Shown here piece after piece: positions 20,095-47,689 of a stretch of 64,000 nucleotides of DNA (position 1 is its first letter; every line of letters begins with the position of its first letter). The notes under the pieces are model-generated. The model saw only the letters and a list, made by a program, of their open reading frames with translations, made no database searches and was not told where the DNA came from. The DNA is taken from NCBI RefSeq assembly GCF_012863495.1, contig NZ_JAAVJL010000001.1, positions 2,104,001 to 2,168,000 on the forward strand, in the 5' to 3' direction. Both the position numbers and the translations under genes were made by a program. The DNA comes from Pseudanabaena yagii GIHE-NHR1 (GTDB lineage: Bacteria; Cyanobacteriota; Cyanobacteriia; Pseudanabaenales; Pseudanabaenaceae).

Positions 20095-21174
20095 ATGACT
20101 GCCAATACCTTGCCAAACCCTTCGACTAAAGCCCTACCTCTGTTGGGGCGATCGCTCTCTGAACTAACAGAATGGGTCGAAGCACAAGGACAGCCTCGCT
20201 ACCGTGGTAAGCAGCTTTATGAATGGATATATACGAAAGGGGCAAGAAATTTAGAAGACATTACAGTTTTTCCTAAGGCATGGCGTGAGCAATTTGCGAC
20301 TCATCCGACGGTTGAGATGGGGCGATCGCAGATTCATCTCCATAAGCAAAGTCGTGACGGCACTGAGAAATTTCTACTACAACTAGCTGATGGTGAAATC
20401 GTGGAAACCGTTGGTATTCCCACCAGTAAGCGTTTGACGGTTTGTGTATCCACTCAAGTAGGTTGTCCGATGGCTTGTGATTTTTGTGCCACAGGCAAAG
20501 GGGGATTTCGGCGTAACTTAGCAAAGCATGAAATCATCGATCAAGTGCTAACTGTCCAAGAAGTCATGCAGCAACGTGTCAGCAATATTGTCTTCATGGG
20601 CATGGGCGAGCCATTGCTCAATTTTGAGAATCTCGTCGGGGCAATTCATGTCATCAATAAAGATATTGGCATCGGTCAACGCAATATCACTGTTTCCACT
20701 GTTGGTATTCCTAATCAAATTCCTAGATTCGCGAAGGAACATCTCCAAGTTACTCTCGCAGTCAGCCTCCATGCTCCCAATCAAAATATTCGTGCTCAAG
20801 TAATTCCTTCTGCCGATCGCTATCCGTTAGAAGCACTCATGGATGATTGCCGTGCCTATGTGGAAATCACTGGTCGAAGGATTAGTTTTGAATATACCTT
20901 GCTAGCGGGAGTGAATGACTCTGCGGCAAATGCACAGGAACTTGCTCACTTAATTCGCGGGTTCCAAAGTCATGTCAATTTGATTCCCTACAACCCCGTT
21001 AACGATGCGGATTACCAACGTCCTAGCGAGAGAGCAATTCAAACCTTTGTGCAAACTTTAGAAGATGCCAAAATCGCTGTAAGTGTACGCCGTACTAGAG
21101 GCTTAGAAGCCGATGCCGCTTGTGGACAACTTCGAGGACAGCATGAGAAAGCCTTAGCAAAACAAACATCCTAA
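20095..21174 (+). CDS. rlmN: 23S rRNA/tRNA adenine-C2 methyltransferase RlmN
   Basis: This 359-aa radical SAM enzyme methylates A2503 of 23S rRNA and A37 of some tRNAs. The cluster-binding motif is CPMACDFC (about residue 123). [19 protein letters not shown] and the C-terminal Cys of DAACGQLRG, which forms the methyl-enzyme intermediate, are present. The N-terminal [12 protein letters not shown] is characteristic. The length is normal. It is followed by an inverted repeat and cysA. Confidence 0.95.
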
Positions 21175-21303: not shown

Positions 21304-22329
21304 GTGGGTATTGTTGTAGAAAATGTAAATAAAAAATTTGGCGATTATGTAGCTCTCGATAATATTAACCTTGAGGTCAAAACTGGATCTCTAGTTGCGC
21401 TGTTAGGTCCCTCTGGTTCTGGTAAATCCACATTATTACGAGTAATTGCAGGCTTAGAATCTCCCGATAGTGGCAAAATTTTCCTTACAGGTAAAGACGC
21501 AACCGATCAAGATGTCCGCGATCGCAATATTGGTTTTGTGTTTCAGCATTATGCGTTGTTCAAGCACATGACCATTCGCCAAAATATTGGCTTCGGATTA
21601 GAAGTCCGCAAAATGCCTAAGGCGAAAATAGCCGATCGTGTAGAGGAGCTACTCGAACTCATTCAACTCAAAGGACTTGGCAACCGCTATCCCTCACAAC
21701 TATCGGGTGGACAACGCCAAAGAGTCTCCCTTGCCCGCGCCCTTGCTGTACAACCTAGCGTATTGCTACTTGATGAGCCGTTTGGAGCGCTAGATGCTAA
21801 AGTCCGTAAAGAATTGCGTGCATGGCTACGCCGTCTCCATGATGAAGTCCATGTCACCAGTGTATTTGTGACCCACGACCAAGAAGAAGCGATGGAAGTA
21901 TCTGACCAAATCGTGGTGATGAATCAAGGTAAAATTGAGCAGATTGGCACACCTGCGGAAGTTTATGATAATCCTGCTACGCCTTTTGTGATGAGCTTTA
22001 TCGGTCCAGTGAATGTACTGCCAGTTAAAAGCGAGCAAGTTAGCAAATTCCAGCCAACTCACGAACAAAATGGGAAAGGCGATCTATATATTCGTCCTCG
22101 TGATATTTTGATTGAACTTGAGGCAACTACTACTTCTGTAGCAGCAAGGATTAATAGAATCATTAACCTTGGTTGGGAAGTTCAAGCTGAGCTAGTGCTA
22201 GATGATGGACAGGTATTAACTGCTCACCTCACCCGTGAACGTTTTAATGAGTTAGATTTACAACCGCAGCAAAAAGTTTATATTGAACCCAAGGACACCA
22301 AGTCTTTCTCGTTAGATTATTCAATCTAA
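21304..22329 (+). CDS. cysA: Sulfate/thiosulfate ABC transporter ATP-binding protein CysA
   Basis: This 341-aa ATPase has Walker [10 protein letters not shown] (about residue 36), signature LSGGQRQR, Walker [12 protein letters not shown] and the switch histidine in [11 protein letters not shown]-terminal regulatory TOBE-like region follows (about 235-341). The closest group is CysA, which energises the CysT/CysW sulfate permease. Those permease genes are not adjacent, so the specificity call rests on overall resemblance. The start is GTG. The SulP permease at 52280 is not linked. Confidence 0.82.
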
Positions 22330-41290: not shown

Positions 41291-41956
41291 AATCTTGCAT
41301 AATCTCCTGTTCATTGGTATTTGGATATCAGTTCAAGTGCAGCACAAAAGCTGTTGCGTCTATTTAATAAAGCTCTGATTTATTTTCACAACACTCAATG
41401 AATTTTTCAATCCTATTTCTCAAGAGAGCTACTATAGCAATCCGAAATCATTTGTAATTGGATAACGATTATTTTGGGCGTTTTTAGATAAATGCTTAAA
41501 GCTATGGCTCACGTCGGATCGTACTACTAGATTTTTTGACACTGCGTAAACGGTTCTCGGATGAAGTAGAGAGCATCTCGCCCTTGAACTTCTATACCAC
41601 CTTTATTAGGAGTTCCCCAACGAGTTACAAATTTTTTCCCATTGCGACGCTCAACAGCAACAGTAAAGTTATTGCGTAACTCCCGATAGCAACCTTCTAG
41701 ATTAGATAATGTTAAATCAAGTACAGGAATATCAATTTTATCAAGTCCTTTATTTTCAACAAAAAAACCTTCTGCACCTCTCTCCATCATCAAAGCAGTT
41801 TGACGATTGATAACTCTTAAAATGTTTTCTTTAACATTCTTTCCATCCTTACCACGCTGAGTCATAATCTGACGGAATTTAACTCCAAACGGAATATAAG
41901 CAGAATTAAGATTATCGGCATTGAAGACTAGAGGTGTTCCTCCCTCTCTCGCTAAC

Positions 41957-43374
41957 CAGCAATTCTCATTATGAAAAATTAACTACTGTTGGGAGGGAGA
42001 TCTAACTCCAAACCTTGAATCATAAAAGTCAAAAGATGATCCCAACTATCAAAAACAAGATATCGAGTCAAGGCGCGTAAATCGTTAAAAAAGGTTTTGC
42101 GGGTTGGCAAATGAGAGCGCAATAACTGGTACTTGTCATCGACCAATTCCAATAACGTGTGAAATAGTAGGGACAAAATATTGAGGGTGGCTAGGAATGA
42201 AGCAAGATGCTCCTTGCCATGTCCAAAGTTGTGTTCTAGGTTGTAGCCCTTAGTTTTGAGAGTATTGTTATTCTCATTTTCCACTTTCCAACGAGTACGA
42301 CCAGCCAGCACGATTTCCACCACTGTTTGCTCAGTAATCAGGTGATTGGTGGCAAAAGAGTTTTTGTAAACTACCTTGCCATCAGGTCTAGTCACAGTTA
42401 GTTCACACCAGTTAACCAGCAAAGCATCGTCACCATCTTTGATAGGTAGCCCATTGACATATTGGTAGGTATAGGTCTCTTGAACTTTCCCTGTCCACTT
42501 ATTGACAACCACCGTTGGCAAAGCAATCCCTTCTATATGCTCATAGATAGTGGGGTGAGATTCGGGGCGGCAGACTAAGATGAAGTTGAACTGTTGCTCT
42601 AATAGCATTTGGCAGAGGGGTTGGCGAGAATAAAGGTCATCACCCAAAACAGTTACCTTGAATGCACTGTACTTACTGCCATGTTGTAACAACCATCTTT
42701 TGGCGGCTGTATTCTCACAGTCTTGCTTGTCATTTCCATCCTGCGGCACAATAAATTCTGGTACTAGGGGAATCACTTGCGATTGATGTGGACTGACGAT
42801 AACTGGCGTAACTACGCTATGAAAATAATGAATTTCTCCTGATTTCATTTTCCTACTCGAACAATGGTGACAGTGTATTTGTTTTGAACTAAAGTACTCT
42901 GTCCCATCTAGCGCCATTAATAGATTGTTGGCGAATCCTCGAAATCCTTGCAGTTTCCCCTTTTGCTCTATCGTCTCCAAGATTGTCTCGAACACTGGAA
43001 ACATTTCTTTAGGTTGCACTGGGTCTAGCAAGTCTCGGATATGGTTATCCGTTGGTATTTTATGCACCCCAAATAAACTTTGGGCGTTGCTTCGCCCTTT
43101 TGTCTGCTCCATTGTCCGCTGGTAAGACAAGAATGATGGACTTTGAGTGAAAAATACACTGAATGCACTCATGGCTGCATCTTCCATGCCATAGCGACTA
43201 TTTTTGCCTGTCCGCTTGTCTGGCAATGATTCTAGTTGTTGTCGGAAAATTTCTACAATTCTGTCGAATGAGCCTTGTGCTTTCAAAGCTCTTCCCCTAA
43301 ATCAATCATCATGTTATTTACAATATCCCTATATCAACGGTTTGACTAGCCTTCGTTCATAATGAGAATTGCTG
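41957..43374 (-). mobile_element. Complete insertion sequence (ISNCY-like) in alpha-amylase gene
   Basis: The element is 1418 bp long and has perfect 19-bp terminal inverted repeats CAGCAATTCTCATTATGAA (41957-41975 and 43356-43374). The host sequence CTCGCTAAC is duplicated at 41948-41956 and 43375-43383. One full transposase gene lies inside. Perfect ends and duplication suggest a recent and possibly active copy. Confidence 0.95.
41979..43286 (-). CDS. DDE transposase of the ISNCY-like element
   Basis: This 435-aa transposase has an N-terminal DDE_Tnp-like region (PDKRTGKNSRYGMEDAAMSA). Probable catalytic Asps lie in MALDGTEYF and LGDDLYSRQP. A late Glu is in RWKVENENNNTLKTKGY, which matches the YREK-like C1 signature position of IS4-type enzymes. 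I recall highly similar cyanobacterial proteins annotated as ISNCY family. The start at 43286 lies 88 bp inside the right end. Confidence 0.88.
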   Translation of the reverse strand: MKAQGSFDRIVEIFRQQLESLPDKRTGKNSRYGMEDAAMSAFSVFFTQSPSFLSYQRTMEQTKGRSNAQSLFGVHKIPTDNHIRDLLDPVQPKEMFPVFETILETIEQKGKLQGFRGFANNLLMALDGTEYFSSKQIHCHHCSSRKMKSGEIHYFHSVVTPVIVSPHQSQVIPLVPEFIVPQDGNDKQDCENTAAKRWLLQHGSKYSAFKVTVLGDDLYSRQPLCQMLLEQQFNFILVCRPESHPTIYEHIEGIALPTVVVNKWTGKVQETYTYQYVNGLPIKDGDDALLVNWCELTVTRPDGKVVYKNSFATNHLITEQTVVEIVLAGRTRWKVENENNNTLKTKGYNLEHNFGHGKEHLASFLATLNILSLLFHTLLELVDDKYQLLRSHLPTRKTFFNDLRALTRYLVFDSWDHLLTFMIQGLELDLPPNSS

Positions 43375-43907
43375 CTCGCTAACACATATGCTGTCGCAAG
43401 ATAGGAATCAGTGGTATCGTCATAGGGACTATATGCGTCTTTCTTCGCTTTTCTAATTTCTACCACTGAATCGTGATTTCTGCCAAAGGTAACACTACGA
43501 GAATCATTTACGGCATTACTTGGTAGCGATCGCAAATCCCCACCGAAAGAGAATGCACCTTTCATGGAGTTGTAAAGGAGAAAATCTGTGACCACAGCAA
43601 TCCAATTGTAATCTTCTGCTTTCGTATCATTGTCTTCTATGACTTCAAGATAATTCCAAGTATTTCCTTTACTTTCGGCATCAATAAAGTCAATGTACTC
43701 TTTCTGGACATTAGCAGGCATATGCTTAGAGGCATCAAAACGAAATCCATCAATCCCTAAGTCAAGTAATTTCTTGAGATGTGCTTTTTGGATGCGTTTG
43801 ACATTGGGAGTGAATTTGAGATCTGGAAGGCTGGCGAGCCAACAGTTAAGTTCCGAGTCCCTGTTGCCATCGTTATAGCCATTTCTATTTATACCTTCTC
43901 AAATTAT

Positions 43908-44034: not shown

Positions 44035-44104
44035 TCAAAAGATATCATATAGAGGTCGCACCCCCAGTACAATCCCAGAAGCAAAGACATCTAAAAATGC
44101 TGCG
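44035..44104 (-). pseudogene. Degenerate sixth precursor core
   Basis: In one minus frame this region reads CLCFWDCTGGATSI and a stop, closely paralleling the tail CVCFYDCTGGATWQY of the intact precursor at 44115. The 21-bp segment GGTCGCACCCCCAGTACAATC is identical in both. No leader is left, so it is a relic of a further array member. Confidence 0.6.
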
Positions 44105-44114
44105 ATCGCGGCGA

Positions 44115-44333
44115 TTAATACTGCCAGGTCGCACCCCCAGTACAATCATAAAAGCAAACACATCCGCCGTCTTGCCAACAGTGACACGTAGGTATGCACT
44201 CTCTACGCAATTGAGGAACAATTAAGTTTGGTGATACTAGCATTTCTTTCAATGTTACAACTGTTTGGTGGTATTCACTGGACTCATTAAATGCTCTCTC
44301 TGCAGTAAACCCAGGCATTTTCATTGTGCTCAT
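44115..44333 (-). CDS. MPGFTAE-leader cysteine-rich precursor peptide 5
   Basis: This 72-aa peptide has the shared leader KMPGFTAE at residues 5-12 and a PQLR motif at 40-43. The core is RECIPTCHCWQDGGCVCFYD and following, with six Cys; the leader has none. It is the most distal and most diverged array member. Unlike the others it lacks a GGAG ribosome-binding site before the first ATG, so expression may be weak or start at Met4. It is probably cleaved after the leader by the PatA-like protease, which is inference. Confidence 0.78.
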   Translation of the reverse strand: MSTMKMPGFTAERAFNESSEYHQTVVTLKEMLVSPNLIVPQLRRECIPTCHCWQDGGCVCFYDCTGGATWQY

Positions 44334-44353
44334 TTTGTTTTGGTTGGTTAGAT

Positions 44354-44455
44354 TTAACGGTCATAGTACTGTGACAATTTAGTCACCAAGAACGGAAACT
44401 CCTCAGTCACATCAACACGCACATGGCTAAACTCTCAATAGTCAGCACCCAGCAG
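44354..44455 (-). pseudogene. PatG-like gene 3' fragment before precursor 5
   Basis: The frame encodes VRVDVTEEFPFLVTKLSQYY and stops as in the intact gene at 45867. Directly upstream lies a scrap of the middle of that gene (WVLTIESLA), so an internal deletion joined the two parts. The GTGAC-N6-GTCAC inverted repeat is kept. Confidence 0.75.
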
Positions 44456-44479
44456 AGCTGAGCCTACCCTGCTTTCTCA

Positions 44480-44704
44480 TCAGCATTGGTTAATACAAAC
44501 CCCGCAACAGTATTCACCTCCGGTATTGGCGCAACAAGTACAATTTGCTGCGCAACCCCTTTCACTCCTCAGGCTAGCTACTACTGTTGCTTTCCCGGTA
44601 ATACCATCTGCTGTGATTTTGGAAGCCTCAGCCATGTGGTATTGCCCACTTGCTTTGTAAAATGATGACTCTGCGGTAAACCCAGGCATTTTTGTACTAT
44701 TCAT
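44480..44704 (-). CDS. MPGFTAE-leader cysteine-rich precursor peptide 4
   Basis: This 74-aa peptide has leader MNSTKMPGFTAESSFYKASG, a longer spacer with ITADGITGKATV, and an ASLR motif where the others have PQLR. The core GCAANCTCCANTGGEYCCGV and following contains eight Cys, the most of the set. AAAGGAG lies 7 bases before the start. The Ser/Thr-poor, Cys/Gly-rich core suggests disulfides rather than lanthionines. No modifying enzyme is nearby. Confidence 0.82.
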   Translation of the reverse strand: MNSTKMPGFTAESSFYKASGQYHMAEASKITADGITGKATVVASLRSERGCAANCTCCANTGGEYCCGVCINQC

Positions 44705-44748
44705 TTTGTATCTCCTTTTAGCTGGTTAGTTAGATTTAACGATCATAG

Positions 44749-44861
44749 TTAAGGTGACAATTTAGTCACCAAGAACGGAAATTCCTCGGTCACATCCACG
44801 CGTACAAAGAACTCTTCTGTGAAATCGGTGTTGCGTTTTGTGGTGGCTTTTTTCTATGCCA
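44749..44861 (-). pseudogene. PatG-like gene 3' fragment before precursor 4
   Basis: The frame reads RNTDFTEEFFVRVDVTEEFP then FLVTKLSP and a premature stop. It is homologous to the last 38 codons of the gene at 45867. The stem GGTGACAATTTAGTCACC is retained although the final codons are lost. Confidence 0.8.
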
Positions 44862-44871
44862 GCATGATTCA

Positions 44872-45078
44872 TTAGCAATTACTATAAAATTGATAACAAC
44901 TCATCTCATCTCCTCTTAAGCAGCGTGAAAGCCAATTTCCGCATCTATCAGTTGGCCGAAGTTGAGGAATAATCTGGTTACTATCGTTGCCATTAGAAAT
45001 TACCAATCTTTGGTAATGATTGCGTTTGATGTTAAGAGAAGCCTCTGCGGTAAATCCTGGCATTTTCGTTGTTTTCAT
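44872..45078 (-). CDS. MPGFTAE-leader cysteine-rich precursor peptide 3
   Basis: This 68-aa peptide has leader MKTTKMPGFTAEASLNIKRN and IIPQLRPTD before the core CGNWLSRCLRGDEMSCYQFY and following, with four Cys. The leader DNA and upstream region (161 bp, 44934-45094) are identical to precursor 2. The core differs at 11 codons, with 13 non-silent and one silent base change. GGAG lies before the start. It is co-directional with the protease genes. Confidence 0.85.
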   Translation of the reverse strand: MKTTKMPGFTAEASLNIKRNHYQRLVISNGNDSNQIIPQLRPTDRCGNWLSRCLRGDEMSCYQFYSNC

Positions 45079-45105
45079 TTCACATCTCCTTTGGGTTGTT
45101 TAGGT

Positions 45106-45232
45106 TTAGCGGTCATAATACGGTGACAACTTAGTCACCAAGAACGGAAATTCCTCTGTCACATCCAAGCGCACAAAGAACTCTTCTGTGAAATCGGTGT
45201 TGCGTTTTGTGGTGGCTTTTTTCTGTGTCAGC
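45106..45232 (-). pseudogene. PatG-like gene 3' fragment before precursor 3
   Basis: The frame encodes KRNTDFTEEFFVRLDVTEEF followed by PFLVTKLSPYYDR and the same stop as the complete gene at 45867. It starts abruptly near the repeated KATTKRN segment, which differs from the intact gene. The GGTGAC-N6-GTCACC palindrome variant is present. Confidence 0.82.
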
Positions 45233-45243
45233 ATGATTCACCA

Positions 45244-45450
45244 TCAGCAATTGCTAAAAAATAGATCACAACACCTCCCATCTCCTTTTAAGCAGCATGC
45301 AGCTAAATTTCCGCATCTATCAGTTGGCCGAAGTTGAGGAATAATCTGGTTACTATCGTTGCCATTAGAAATTACCAATCTTTGGTAATGATTGCGTTTG
45401 ATGTTAAGAGAAGCCTCTGCGGTAAATCCTGGCATTTTCGTTGTTTTCAT
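45244..45450 (-). CDS. MPGFTAE-leader cysteine-rich precursor peptide 2
   Basis: This 68-aa peptide has a leader identical to precursor 3. The core is CGNLAACCLKGDGRCCDLFF and following, with six Cys in single and paired positions. The PQLRP motif marks the probable leader-core border. AAAGGAG precedes the start. Compared with precursor 3, changes are confined to the core and are almost all amino-acid altering. Its upstream spacer lacks the PatG-like tail remnant found before precursors 3 to 5. Confidence 0.85.
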   Translation of the reverse strand: MKTTKMPGFTAEASLNIKRNHYQRLVISNGNDSNQIIPQLRPTDRCGNLAACCLKGDGRCCDLFFSNC

Positions 45451-45522
45451 TTCACATCTCCTTTGGATTGTTTAGATTTAGCGCTTAATACCGCTATGAT
45501 TTGGTGCGATCTGATGTTGCAA

Positions 45523-45626
45523 GGCATCAGATCGGGTAAGCTTACGCGATCTGACACGATTGATTGTAAAAGCAAGGTCAGTGCTGAATGGATGTTAGGT
45601 TGTGTATATCAATCCAACCTAAAAGA
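45523..45626. repeat. Two short hairpins between precursors 1 and 2
   Basis: One is CGATCTGATG...CATCAGATCG (about 45509-45538). The other is TTAGGTTG...CAACCTAA (about 45597-45624), directly after the precursor 1 stop on the minus strand. The second could attenuate transcription into the distal array. Confidence 0.5.
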
Positions 45627-45839
45627 TTAGGGAACACACCAGCATATCATTCCGGCATCATTACCTCCAGCTGTGCACATTATGCCTTTACACATTCCCC
45701 CTCCATCAACAGGTCTCAATTGTGGTAAAACTCCTTGATGTTCAGCTACATCATAGAGATCTCTATTCATTTCGTAGCGCTCGCGAGCCATATAGATCGA
45801 AGATTCTGCGGTAAATCCTGGCATTTTCGTGGTTTTCAT
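45627..45839 (-). CDS. MPGFTAE-leader cysteine-rich precursor peptide 1
   Basis: This 70-aa peptide lies nearest the processing genes, 27 bp after the PatG-like gene, with AAAAGGAGATG before the start. The leader is MKTTKMPGFTAESSIYMARE. VLPQLRPVD precedes a Gly-rich core MCKGIMCTAGG...MICWCVP with four Cys. Its promoter is probably that of the protease operon. As with the others, cysteine is confined to the tail. Cleavage after QLR or RP is a guess from conservation. Confidence 0.85.
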   Translation of the reverse strand: MKTTKMPGFTAESSIYMARERYEMNRDLYDVAEHQGVLPQLRPVDGGGMCKGIMCTAGGNDAGMICWCVP

Positions 45840-45866
45840 TTCACATCTCCTTTTGGTTGTTTAGGT

Positions 45867-46790
45867 TTAGCGGTCATAATACGGTGACAATTTAGTCACC
45901 AAGAACGGAAACTCCTCAGTCACATCCACACGAACAAAGAACTTCTCTGTGAAATCGGTGTTGCGATTTGTGTAGGAGAAGATGACAGCGACGATCTTGC
46001 GGGTGCTACTGAGAGAGGAAGGACGGACTTCCACGCCAGTTAAGGCACAGCTTTGACCATAAGCTTCGGCTGCCTTCGCGTAGATCGCATGATAGCGAAC
46101 TGCCAAATAGTTCAAAGCACGATGCTCATCTGTTGCGCCTGCATTATCAGCCATTTGCATAATGCGATCGAACAATTCCTCAGCAGCATGGGTAAATCGT
46201 TCTGCCTCAATGTTCTCTGGACAGGGAATTGAGCCGATCAGCATATTCCGATCGAAGGAATAGATTTGGTCGAAAACCACAATTGGCAACATTAGCCCAT
46301 TGCATAGCTCTGGTGGTGCGATCGGACCTCGCATACCAATGATGATATCCACATCCGCAGGACTGGGGGCAGGACGAACAGCTTCTACCAATAGGTCTAA
46401 GTCCGCAGGGTCACGCGGAGCTAAAATGTAAGTGGCTAAACCCTCAATAGTCAGCACCCAGCACATTTGACGTACCAAATATCGGTTTTGCCTCTGGGTT
46501 AGAACTGTATAAACAGCCTCTCGGTCAGTCTGACCAGAGGTTTCTGTCCGTCCAGTAGCTTGGGCAAATTCCTTTTCCACTGATTGCTTTGGAAAACGCC
46601 ACTCAACCTTGCCCAAAGCATAGACATAGGAAGGAGGAGATGAATTAGAACCTGAGCCTCCACAAGAACATCCCTCACCTCCAGATTGAAGGATTACAGA
46701 TGTGTTAATAGGATTATTAGAAAATGAGGTCATCGTTGGTAAATCGTTCATGTCTGTAGTTTGCGGAGATAAACTTTCCGTTTGATCCAT
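45867..46790 (-). CDS. PatG C-terminal-like maturation protein without protease domain
   Basis: This 307-aa protein resembles the C-terminal part of PatG, the cyanobactin maturation protease/macrocyclase. Recognisable segments are YVYALGKVEWRFPKQSVEKE, RQMCWVLTIEGLATYIL and the final DVTEEFPFLVTKLSPYYDR. The subtilisin domain of PatG is missing; the separate protease gene upstream may supply that function. A short Cys/Gly motif GGEGCSCGGSGS lies near the N-terminus. ATG 46790, with AAGGA upstream, is preferred over 46844, which would overlap the protease gene. Its 3' end has been copied three times into the peptide array. Confidence 0.78.
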   Translation of the reverse strand: MDQTESLSPQTTDMNDLPTMTSFSNNPINTSVILQSGGEGCSCGGSGSNSSPPSYVYALGKVEWRFPKQSVEKEFAQATGRTETSGQTDREAVYTVLTQRQNRYLVRQMCWVLTIEGLATYILAPRDPADLDLLVEAVRPAPSPADVDIIIGMRGPIAPPELCNGLMLPIVVFDQIYSFDRNMLIGSIPCPENIEAERFTHAAEELFDRIMQMADNAGATDEHRALNYLAVRYHAIYAKAAEAYGQSCALTGVEVRPSSLSSTRKIVAVIFSYTNRNTDFTEKFFVRVDVTEEFPFLVTKLSPYYDR

Positions 46791-46804
46791 AAAATTATTG
46801 TCCT

Positions 46805-47689
46805 TTAAGCATGAGACTTTGCCATGATTTGGTACGCTGCCCAAGCATCCAACAACGGGGGGACAACTGTGGTTCGTCGAGACCCATGGCTCTGCGTGAC
46901 AGCGAGTTGTATCTCAGTAGCCGTGGCGGTCGGAAATTGTGACCACAACAGCGCGATCGCACCTGTGACGAAGGGAACAGCAACGCTTGTTCCACCTAAA
47001 GTTAAAGTTAAGGTTTTCTCATCAGTGCCAAGGCTAGTAATCTGATCTCCAGGAGCGCTCAGTCCTCTTCTGCCGATAGAACTGCCCAAATTTGAGTAAC
47101 TAACCAGTCTTCCTTGTAAGTCACAAGCTACAACTGGAATCACCCACGGATGCCGAGTAATTGCAGAACTACCCAGCGTTCCCTGATTTCCTGATGCTAC
47201 TACAGCAATGACTCCACGACTAATGGCATAGTCTAAGGCTTCCTGTAGCTCACGCTCACCTTGAGATGAAGGTTGGGCGATCGCTACGCTCATATTCAGT
47301 ATTCGAGCGCCAGCATCAATACTCTCAATGATTGCCGTTGCCAAATCGGAAGGAGTTGCACTGGGCATCTGTTCCTTCCCTGACAAAGTCTCGGCAAAAA
47401 TAGGGCGTACTAGCAGAGTGCAGTTGGAACAGATCGCCGGGGCTAAGGAATTCCTCGTCCCAACCAAAATACCTGCTACAAATGTCCCGTGGATACAGGC
47501 AGTACTGCTAGCTTGAACACATTGACCACTCAGATTACCAGAAACCTCACGGATATTTGCACTCACCAATTCAGGGTGTTGCTTTAATACAGACCCATCA
47601 ATTAAACCAACTACGACTTCTGGTCTGCCGCTTGTGAGTTCCATCAATGGTGTGAGTTTAACCAAATCTAGAGGGTTTATTTGCTTCAC
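46805..47689 (-). CDS. PatA-like subtilisin-family (S8) peptidase
   Basis: This 294-aa protease has the S8 triad: Asp in VVVGLIDGSV, His in CIHGTFVAGIL and Ser in GGTSVAVPF. The oxyanion Asn is in VVASGNQG. The region TSGRPEVVVGLIDG is typical of the PatA/PatG cyanobactin group. It lacks a signal peptide and prodomain, so it probably works in the cytoplasm on a leader peptide. The PatG-like gene follows within 15 bp, then five precursor peptides, so it is the likely leader protease. Four to five Cys in the loops are unusual for the family. Confidence 0.85.
   Translation of the reverse strand: MKQINPLDLVKLTPLMELTSGRPEVVVGLIDGSVLKQHPELVSANIREVSGNLSGQCVQASSTACIHGTFVAGILVGTRNSLAPAICSNCTLLVRPIFAETLSGKEQMPSATPSDLATAIIESIDAGARILNMSVAIAQPSSQGERELQEALDYAISRGVIAVVASGNQGTLGSSAITRHPWVIPVVACDLQGRLVSYSNLGSSIGRRGLSAPGDQITSLGTDEKTLTLTLGGTSVAVPFVTGAIALLWSQFPTATATEIQLAVTQSHGSRRTTVVPPLLDAWAAYQIMAKSHA

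Follow-up and report, generated by a model that had tools for sequence, protein, structure and literature searches.

A tandem array of leader peptides beside PatA- and PatG-like genes in Pseudanabaena yagii looks like part of an undescribed peptide-making system found in many phyla

What is made by a set of small cysteine-rich peptides that share one N-terminus and lie behind relatives of the cyanobactin enzymes PatA and PatG? The question is raised by a stretch of DNA from Pseudanabaena yagii GIHE-NHR1 (contig NZ_JAAVJL010000001.1, positions 2,104,001 to 2,168,000; the whole 64,000 nucleotides are called the window), in which an array of five tandem leader genes spans 44115-45839 on the minus strand, downstream of genes for a subtilase and for a stand-alone PatG domain of unknown function (DUF). 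An initial annotation had seen here the logic of a ribosomally synthesized and post-translationally modified peptide (RiPP) pathway, with one protease and many exchangeable cores. Support for this proposal comes from homologous loci in many phyla, from co-occurrence of the genes within one family, from the split between leader and core, and from the lack of any other gene of at least 90 amino acids (aa) shared by all compared loci. The gene set looks like an undescribed peptide-making system in many phyla. Its genes in the window are:

46805-47689, minus strand: PatA-type subtilase (S8), 294 aa, GTG start, without a fused DUF; Pfam Peptidase_S8 3.3e-26
45867-46790, minus strand: PatG-DUF protein, 307 aa, ATG at 46790; PatG_D 4.5e-33, PatG_C 9.7e-36
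45627-45839, minus strand: precursor peptide 1, 70 aa, 4 Cys; matched by the leader hidden Markov model, with AAAAGGAG ahead of the ATG
45244-45450, minus strand: precursor peptide 2, 68 aa, 6 Cys; its initial 138 bases are those of peptide 3
44872-45078, minus strand: precursor peptide 3, 68 aa, 4 Cys
44480-44704, minus strand: precursor peptide 4, 74 aa, 8 Cys; motif variant VVASLR
44115-44333, minus strand: precursor peptide 5, 72 aa, 6 Cys; Shine-Dalgarno-like sequence not seen

Open reading frames (ORFs) and alignment confirmed five short minus-strand genes with a common MPGFTAE leader and differing Cys-rich tails, as annotated, and Pfam matches and coordinates confirmed that they follow the two enzyme genes on the same strand. 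In the alignment of the five peptides, K5, M6, P7, G8, F9, T10, A11, E12, L41, and R42 were invariant. The QLR motif ascribed to the whole array was exact in four genes, the gene at 44480-44704 having SLR instead. AAAGGAG stood ahead of the ATG in four of the five genes, the exception being 44115-44333, and the Cys counts of peptides 1-5 (4, 6, 4, 8, and 6) were all even. Two leader searches of the organism's own 5.57-Mb genome returned these five genes and no more. Chance ORFs were ruled out by conservation, ribosome sites, and homologues.

The homologues were analyzed as a discovery set of 58 peptides (23 of 81 leader matches were excluded for E >1e-9, an unreadable motif or start, or a length below 50 aa) and a further set of 54 peptides, mainly from the Nitrosomonas family (6 of 61 matches and one duplicate were excluded). 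Profile A4 was built from 54 of the 58 discovery peptides, and the Pfam and NCBIfam scans took in 56. A Shine-Dalgarno-like 4-mer preceded an in-frame ATG in 56 of the 58, compared with 0.14 of random 15-mers. The leader pattern PGFTAE.SLY is followed after about 29 residues by [VI]xP[QA]; this motif was present in its strict form in 43 of the 58 discovery peptides (20-33 residues past PGF, median 29) and in 37 of the 54 further ones, thus in 80 of 112 overall, as against 2.4-2.6 per set after shuffling. Cysteine density changed abruptly at the motif: in the 43 motif-bearing discovery peptides Cys accounted for 310 of 2338 residues after it (13.3%) and for 7 of 1636 before it (0.43%), and in the 37 further peptides for 346 of 2428 and 3 of 1416, respectively. 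The core Cys count was even in 41 of the 43 and 33 of the 37. Clustering on whole peptides put 72 of the 112 together by leader, and clustering on cores was adopted instead; with a threshold of 50% identity, the majority count was even (ties taken as even) in 62 of 66 core clusters, and other thresholds gave 79 of 86 and 39 of 41. Mean pairwise identity among the 58 discovery peptides was 0.37 for leaders and 0.16 for cores. The layout is thus of the RiPP type, a conserved leader and a variable core adjoining processing enzymes, and core disulfides are to be expected, chiefly because the core Cys counts are even. None of the 56 scanned peptides matched a Pfam or NCBIfam model at 0.01, and no published description of the leader or locus was found among the literature matches listed, although one may exist in a subscription paper; both results agree with the annotation's view that this is no described class.

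Leader proteins can also be large, reaching 231-235 aa in some cases. Two of these, L036:2276-2971 from a cyanobacterial metagenome-assembled genome (MAG) and L070:5209-5910 from Brocadia (231 and 233 aa), have in common a long, Cys-rich tail that contains CC pairs and that by eye we take to be granulin-like.

The catalytic residues of the subtilase (D31, H67, N168, and S235) were present and invariant in an alignment of eight. Its best solved relative was the PatA protease 4h6w (6.7e-29), and its match to the PatG macrocyclase 4h6x was far weaker (1.8e-12). Five cysteines (C57, C65, C87, C90, and C189) were also invariant in the alignment of eight, which is seemingly unusual in subtilases. 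The DUF gene begins 14 bases past the subtilase stop codon on the same strand, and PatG_D and PatG_C in its product both exceeded the Pfam cut-offs. The sole match to a solved sequence up to E 1 was the PatG DUF 4uvq (1.1e-5). A trimmed model of residues 55-307 (pLDDT 78), used in place of the full-length AlphaFold model (pLDDT 54), aligned to 4uvq with a VIA-align Z of 20.4 over 241 residues and a Foldseek value of 2.8e-13; matches ranked under 4uvq had Z ≤5.6 and were not used. Protease and DUF are separate ORFs in the window, in L036, L037, and L038, and in homologues, and 38 of 41 PatG_D matches in other cyanobacterial genomes sit in open frames above 600 aa. The N-terminal tail of the window's DUF protein, about 50 residues long, terminates in a CxC motif (VILQSGGEGCSCGGSG). 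Among 28 different DUF tails, 27 contained CxC or CxxC, and 21 had xPQ no more than 9 residues away from a Cys, resembling a miniature precursor; a looser xPQ/AQ tally (25 of 28) was too generous, and the stricter count stands.

A DNA pattern for the leader only, PGFTAE.S[LIMF]Y (S or T), with no enzyme sequence in it, was scanned against 84,980 species. It gave 31 loci, 26 of them with a true leader gene; L062, L065, L075, L077, and L078 were judged spurious (L077 had E 1.7e-4 and no start codon near, and the L075 genome E 2.6e-4 in a 15-aa frame). The leader was found in cyanobacteria, beta-, gamma-, and deltaproteobacteria, Nitrospirota, Brocadia, Acidobacteriota, and one Methanoperedens MAG, the hosts including Nitrosospira, Nitrosomonas, Nitrosovibrio, Nitrotoga, Brocadia, Nitrospira, Methylococcales, Ectothiorhodospiraceae, a deltaproteobacterium, Edaphobacter, Bryobacterales, Pyrinomonadaceae, and Calothrix; the MAG cases may contain binning errors. 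Of the 26 loci, 17 had subtilase and DUF, whole or partial, in the same stretch (≤8 kb), and one more had DUF alone, at a contig start; neither enzyme was clearly present in the stretches of the remaining eight, of which L079 had a weak subtilase match only. For 28 of the 31 loci, the 27 source genomes were then taken as wholes (L067 and L074, which carry the same strain name as L056, and L055, which is the contig of L036 in genome G299, were left out). Leader genes were present in 22, and 20 of these had a PatG-like gene (that of G404 cut by a contig end); the PatG-like gene was found in none of the five genomes without leader genes.

The association was also examined in the family of Nitrosomonas Nm166. 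Among 120 genomes, 16 had both leader and PatG-like genes, one the leader only, none the PatG-like gene only, and 103 neither (Fisher p 5e-19); six of the 16 (G389, G390, G391, G396, G397, and G412) had come in via the leader scan and ten were fresh. The subtilase gene adjoined the DUF gene in all 16 DUF-bearing genomes. The annotation had named leader homologues without linked proteases as evidence that would speak against it. Such genes exist, as orphans at a long distance from the subtilase and DUF genes in several Nitrosomonas-family genomes, but the genomes that hold orphans encode the DUF, except G393, G392, and G434.

Among 388 cyanobacterial genomes PatG_D occurred in 32, with the best scores in the window, G023, G244, and G299, in open frames of 275-348 aa; the leader profile matched strongly (E <1e-7) in three genomes, all from these four, and weakly in two more, G142 and G169 (E 0.004 and 0.008). 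The same-genus relative Pseudanabaena sp. lw0831 (G023, L080) bears a similar array. Of 199 genomes from the Edaphobacter phylum, 2 carried the DUF, as did 1 of 34 Methanoperedens-family genomes; one of the former and the single latter are the genomes on which the searches were centred. The acidobacterial locus L155, found by the DUF profile alone, contained subtilase, a small gene described below, DUF, and four leader genes. The DUF was also found on plasmids of Mesorhizobium, Sinorhizobium, and two Streptomyces, listed as 'hypothetical protein', with a subtilase in three of the four; these three carried leader genes in stretches without a listed gene, the plasmid gene table being incomplete. 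On the Streptomyces xanthophaeus plasmid (L153:5887-6765) the DUF gene was more distant (47% identical). No match was found in viral contigs or phages. When lw0831 is excluded, DUF identity to that of the window was 60-79% over the aligned parts, and the DUF tree sets phyla side by side, though just 3 of 20 inner branches are well supported (L151 from Sinorhizobium is not part of the tree, probably because its sequence missed the start pattern). The natural reading of these sequences is a patchy spread of the system by horizontal transfer. A second DUF copy in separate pieces was noted at G465:C1:739205-739697 (L109-L111), away from the intact one and with no subtilase match in the examined stretches.

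A like core (AIP.CGNCD.IL..C or close) was observed in L059:1108-1377 from a Chromatiales MAG, L083:998-1270 from a Pyrinomonadaceae MAG, and L084:5194-5463 from a Methanoperedens MAG. Judging from its presence in these three MAGs, not the enzymes alone but also the cores appear to pass from phylum to phylum.

The window also contains traces of how the array changes. A tblastn search detected three remnant copies of the PatG-like gene's 3' end:

45109-45210, minus strand: remnant, 91% over 34 aa, 40 nt ahead of the peptide 3 leader match
44752-44841, minus strand: remnant, 93% over 30 aa, 57 nt ahead of the peptide 4 leader match
44357-44443, minus strand: remnant, 79% over 29 aa, 33 nt ahead of the peptide 5 leader match

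More such remnants, some short and weak, were present in L036, L037, L059, L072, L083, and L155; matches at the edges of short extracts were taken as cut genes. None was reported ahead of leader genes distant from the DUF gene, where short extracts were searched. Because remnants precede the leader matches of peptides 3-5, arrays seem to grow by duplication of a unit made of the PatG-like 3' end, a spacer, and a peptide. A minus-strand frame at 44045-44110 ends in CLCFWDCTGGATSI, resembling the core end of peptide 5 (CVCFYDCTGGATWQY), and is probably a decayed sixth peptide unit.

Peptides 2 and 3 differed at 0 of 138 nt in the leader and at 15 of 69 in the core, with 6 and 4 Cys, respectively. 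Hypermutation of, or positive selection on, the core was considered and rejected, since the synonymous leader sites were identical too and the cores had a pN of 0.22 and a pS of 0.17 (p=1). The identity of the synonymous sites points to recombination or conversion on the leader side, which is a more likely source of the pattern than selection alone. Between the window and lw0831, 5 of 308 DUF codons differed non-synonymously, compared with 11 of 47 in the leader of the best-matching peptide pair, whose cores were strongly different by eye.

Taken together, we consider it likely that the subtilase and the PatG-DUF protein carry out a leader-directed maturation that yields disulfide-bonded Cys-rich cores. 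Each short gene would encode a precursor with a conserved, almost Cys-free leader and a variable Cys-rich core. The subtilase, presumably acting in the cytoplasm and aided by the adjoining stand-alone PatG-DUF protein, would recognize the leader and cut at or near [VI]xP[QA], and the freed core would exit the reducing cytoplasm and fold with its cysteines paired in disulfides. A single enzyme pair would act on several substrates, adjacent and scattered in the genome, and the activity of the cores may be bacteriocin-like. A wider proposal, which we put forward tentatively and regard as doubtful in its entirety, is that the genes define a new ribosomal peptide class whose hosts range from cyanobacteria to an archaeal MAG. 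In this class the DUF would be the leader-binding, oxidative-folding partner, its precursor-mimicking tail (in most members xPQ, then CxC or CxxC) would bear the signal for redox chemistry or cleavage, and recombination at the DUF 3' end would bring in new cores, giving a fast-changing disulfide repertoire.

Several observations weigh against leader-directed maturation or its extension. The strict motif was absent in 15 of the 58 discovery and 17 of the 54 further peptides. The parity and motif statistics take related sequences as independent, which clustering eases and does not remove; among the 27 whole-peptide clusters, core parity held in 14 of 15 and whole-peptide parity in just 20 of 27. 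No exporter or thiol oxidase was common to the 20 compared loci. G244 has both enzymes, the DUF truncated, and no leader match in its genome; conversely, the leader-bearing G434 and G393 have nothing of the DUF partner and G392 has 3' remnants only, and in the 12.8 kb examined of L153 neither subtilase nor leader gene accompanies the DUF. The window's own DUF tail has ILQS in place of xPQ, and the cores of peptides 2 and 3 have similar pN and pS. The DUF of PatA and PatG is described in passages of PMC4259220 as conserved across cyanobactin pathways, with its fold solved and its role not known, and the same passages report no precursor binding by the PatG DUF in NMR experiments.

Could the locus be a divergent cyanobactin pathway, whose cores are excised and macrocyclized or heterocyclized in the manner of patellamides? 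The likeness is real: the PatA-type subtilase, nearest PatA among solved proteins, and the PatG DUF fold are those of PatA/PatG, and cyanobactins likewise have short precursors with leader and variable core. However, protease and DUF are two genes here, the hosts are mostly outside cyanobacteria, and the cores are Cys-rich with paired counts. YcaO belongs to the heterocycle-bearing branch of cyanobactins and is absent in some cyanobactins; none was found in the window's own whole genome. Against the curated cut-off of 421.05 of TIGR03895 (PatA/PatG family), the subtilase scored 95 bits and the DUF protein 30, and the PatG macrocyclase match was far below that to PatA. According to passages of PMC10885120, cyanobactin recognition sites have the consensus G(L/V)E(A/P)S and AYDG; no such or AYDG-like site was present in any of the 112 peptides, nor was a common C-terminal follower seen among them. 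Macrocyclization of these cores is unlikely because the peptides have no C-terminal signal in common. As judged from these comparisons, the system is not a cyanobactin one; its enzymes are similar, but it departs from several features of that family, and we hold patellamide-like processing to be very unlikely. The top NCBIfam model for the subtilase by E-value, TIGR03921 (117 bits), would instead suggest a type VII secretion mycosin-like enzyme in a secretion-linked set; the score falls short of the 278.75 set as curated cut-off, PatA-type proteases are the best solved matches, and no mycosin-named chain was among the 60 of 157 matches listed, so that this reading is scarcely credible.

Two further explanations leave the enzymes a lesser part. 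If the Cys-rich tails bound metals, in a metallothionein-like or regulatory way, the protease might only turn them over. Nitrifiers and anammox bacteria are metal-rich, and many hosts are of these kinds; the missing common exporter and the lack of an evident signal peptide in the leaders (by eye, no program run) also fit. The even Cys numbers in 62 of 66 core clusters fit disulfides rather than metal clusters, and the cores diverge widely, the leaders less, which makes metal binding unlikely. Alternatively, the leader may be a signal for targeting to secretion or to a complex, the peptides working whole while subtilase and DUF do something else. The orphan leader genes and the large leader proteins favor this, whereas the close tracking of leader and DUF in the 120 genomes and the near-fixed motif distance with its abrupt Cys shift speak against it, and we regard it as rather improbable.

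Maturation by the subtilase and the PatG-DUF protein can also be compared with systems of similar logic. Prochlorosins have Nif11-type leaders and one promiscuous ProcM. They likewise have many precursors per enzyme, as stated in PMC10783134. The window-type loci differ from them in having no further shared enzyme of at least 90 aa, hence no lanthionine synthetase common to the loci, and Cys parity here points to disulfides over thioethers. In passages of PMC10885120, the lanthipeptide S8 peptidases NisP, ElxP, and AmyP remove leaders at a short motif. The likeness to them is an S8 protease that would remove a leader at a short motif; the difference is that the shared partner here is a PatG-DUF protein and there is no shared synthetase.

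If the maturation proposal holds, nitrifiers, anammox bacteria, rhizobial and Streptomyces plasmids, and cyanobacteria harbor a still unnamed class of peptides whose natural cores are many, and a one-protease system tolerating widely different Cys-rich cores would be a practical tool for peptide production. The system may also help to explain the puzzling DUF known from cyanobactins. A separate DUF gene that, in almost all loci seen (L153 is an exception), adjoins the gene of a PatA-type protease with many substrates is a natural test of its role, since deletion and reconstitution of a separate gene product can reveal what it does.

Among ORFs of at least 90 aa, the subtilase and the DUF protein were the only ones common to all 20 compared loci, which had been selected for holding both enzymes. 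In many non-cyanobacterial loci a small gene of about 65-75 aa lies between them (L081:1834-2037, L151:5598-5819, L155:2466-2675), with the consensus LPGFI..EEIGLGD..KR...GIKPCGGC.RRAA.LNRW. No such gene was reported by the motif search for the cyanobacterial loci or for L054, L066, L069, L071, L073, and L084; the small gene matched no Pfam or NCBIfam model and had a weak PHROG match of unknown function. In a comparison with defence proteins, the S8 domain matched generic subtilases and IetS only, and the DUF protein, peptide 1, and the small gene gave no match to known defence proteins.

The annotation's statement that the window holds no radical SAM enzyme or exporter was loose. We take 20095-21174 to be an RlmN-like radical SAM gene and 21568-22329 an ABC ATPase gene, assignments that Pfam, with 25 of 65 families listed, did not confirm; both are more than 20 kb from the array and nothing ties them to it. 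Beside the array, gene pieces at 41527-43721 flank an ORF at 41979-43286, and their homologue L037:2860-4317 is a single long ORF; the split gene is presumably amylase-like and the ORF within it transposase-like. A gene for an omptin-family outer membrane protease (L151:9274-10425) follows the Sinorhizobium array and was not noted in other loci.

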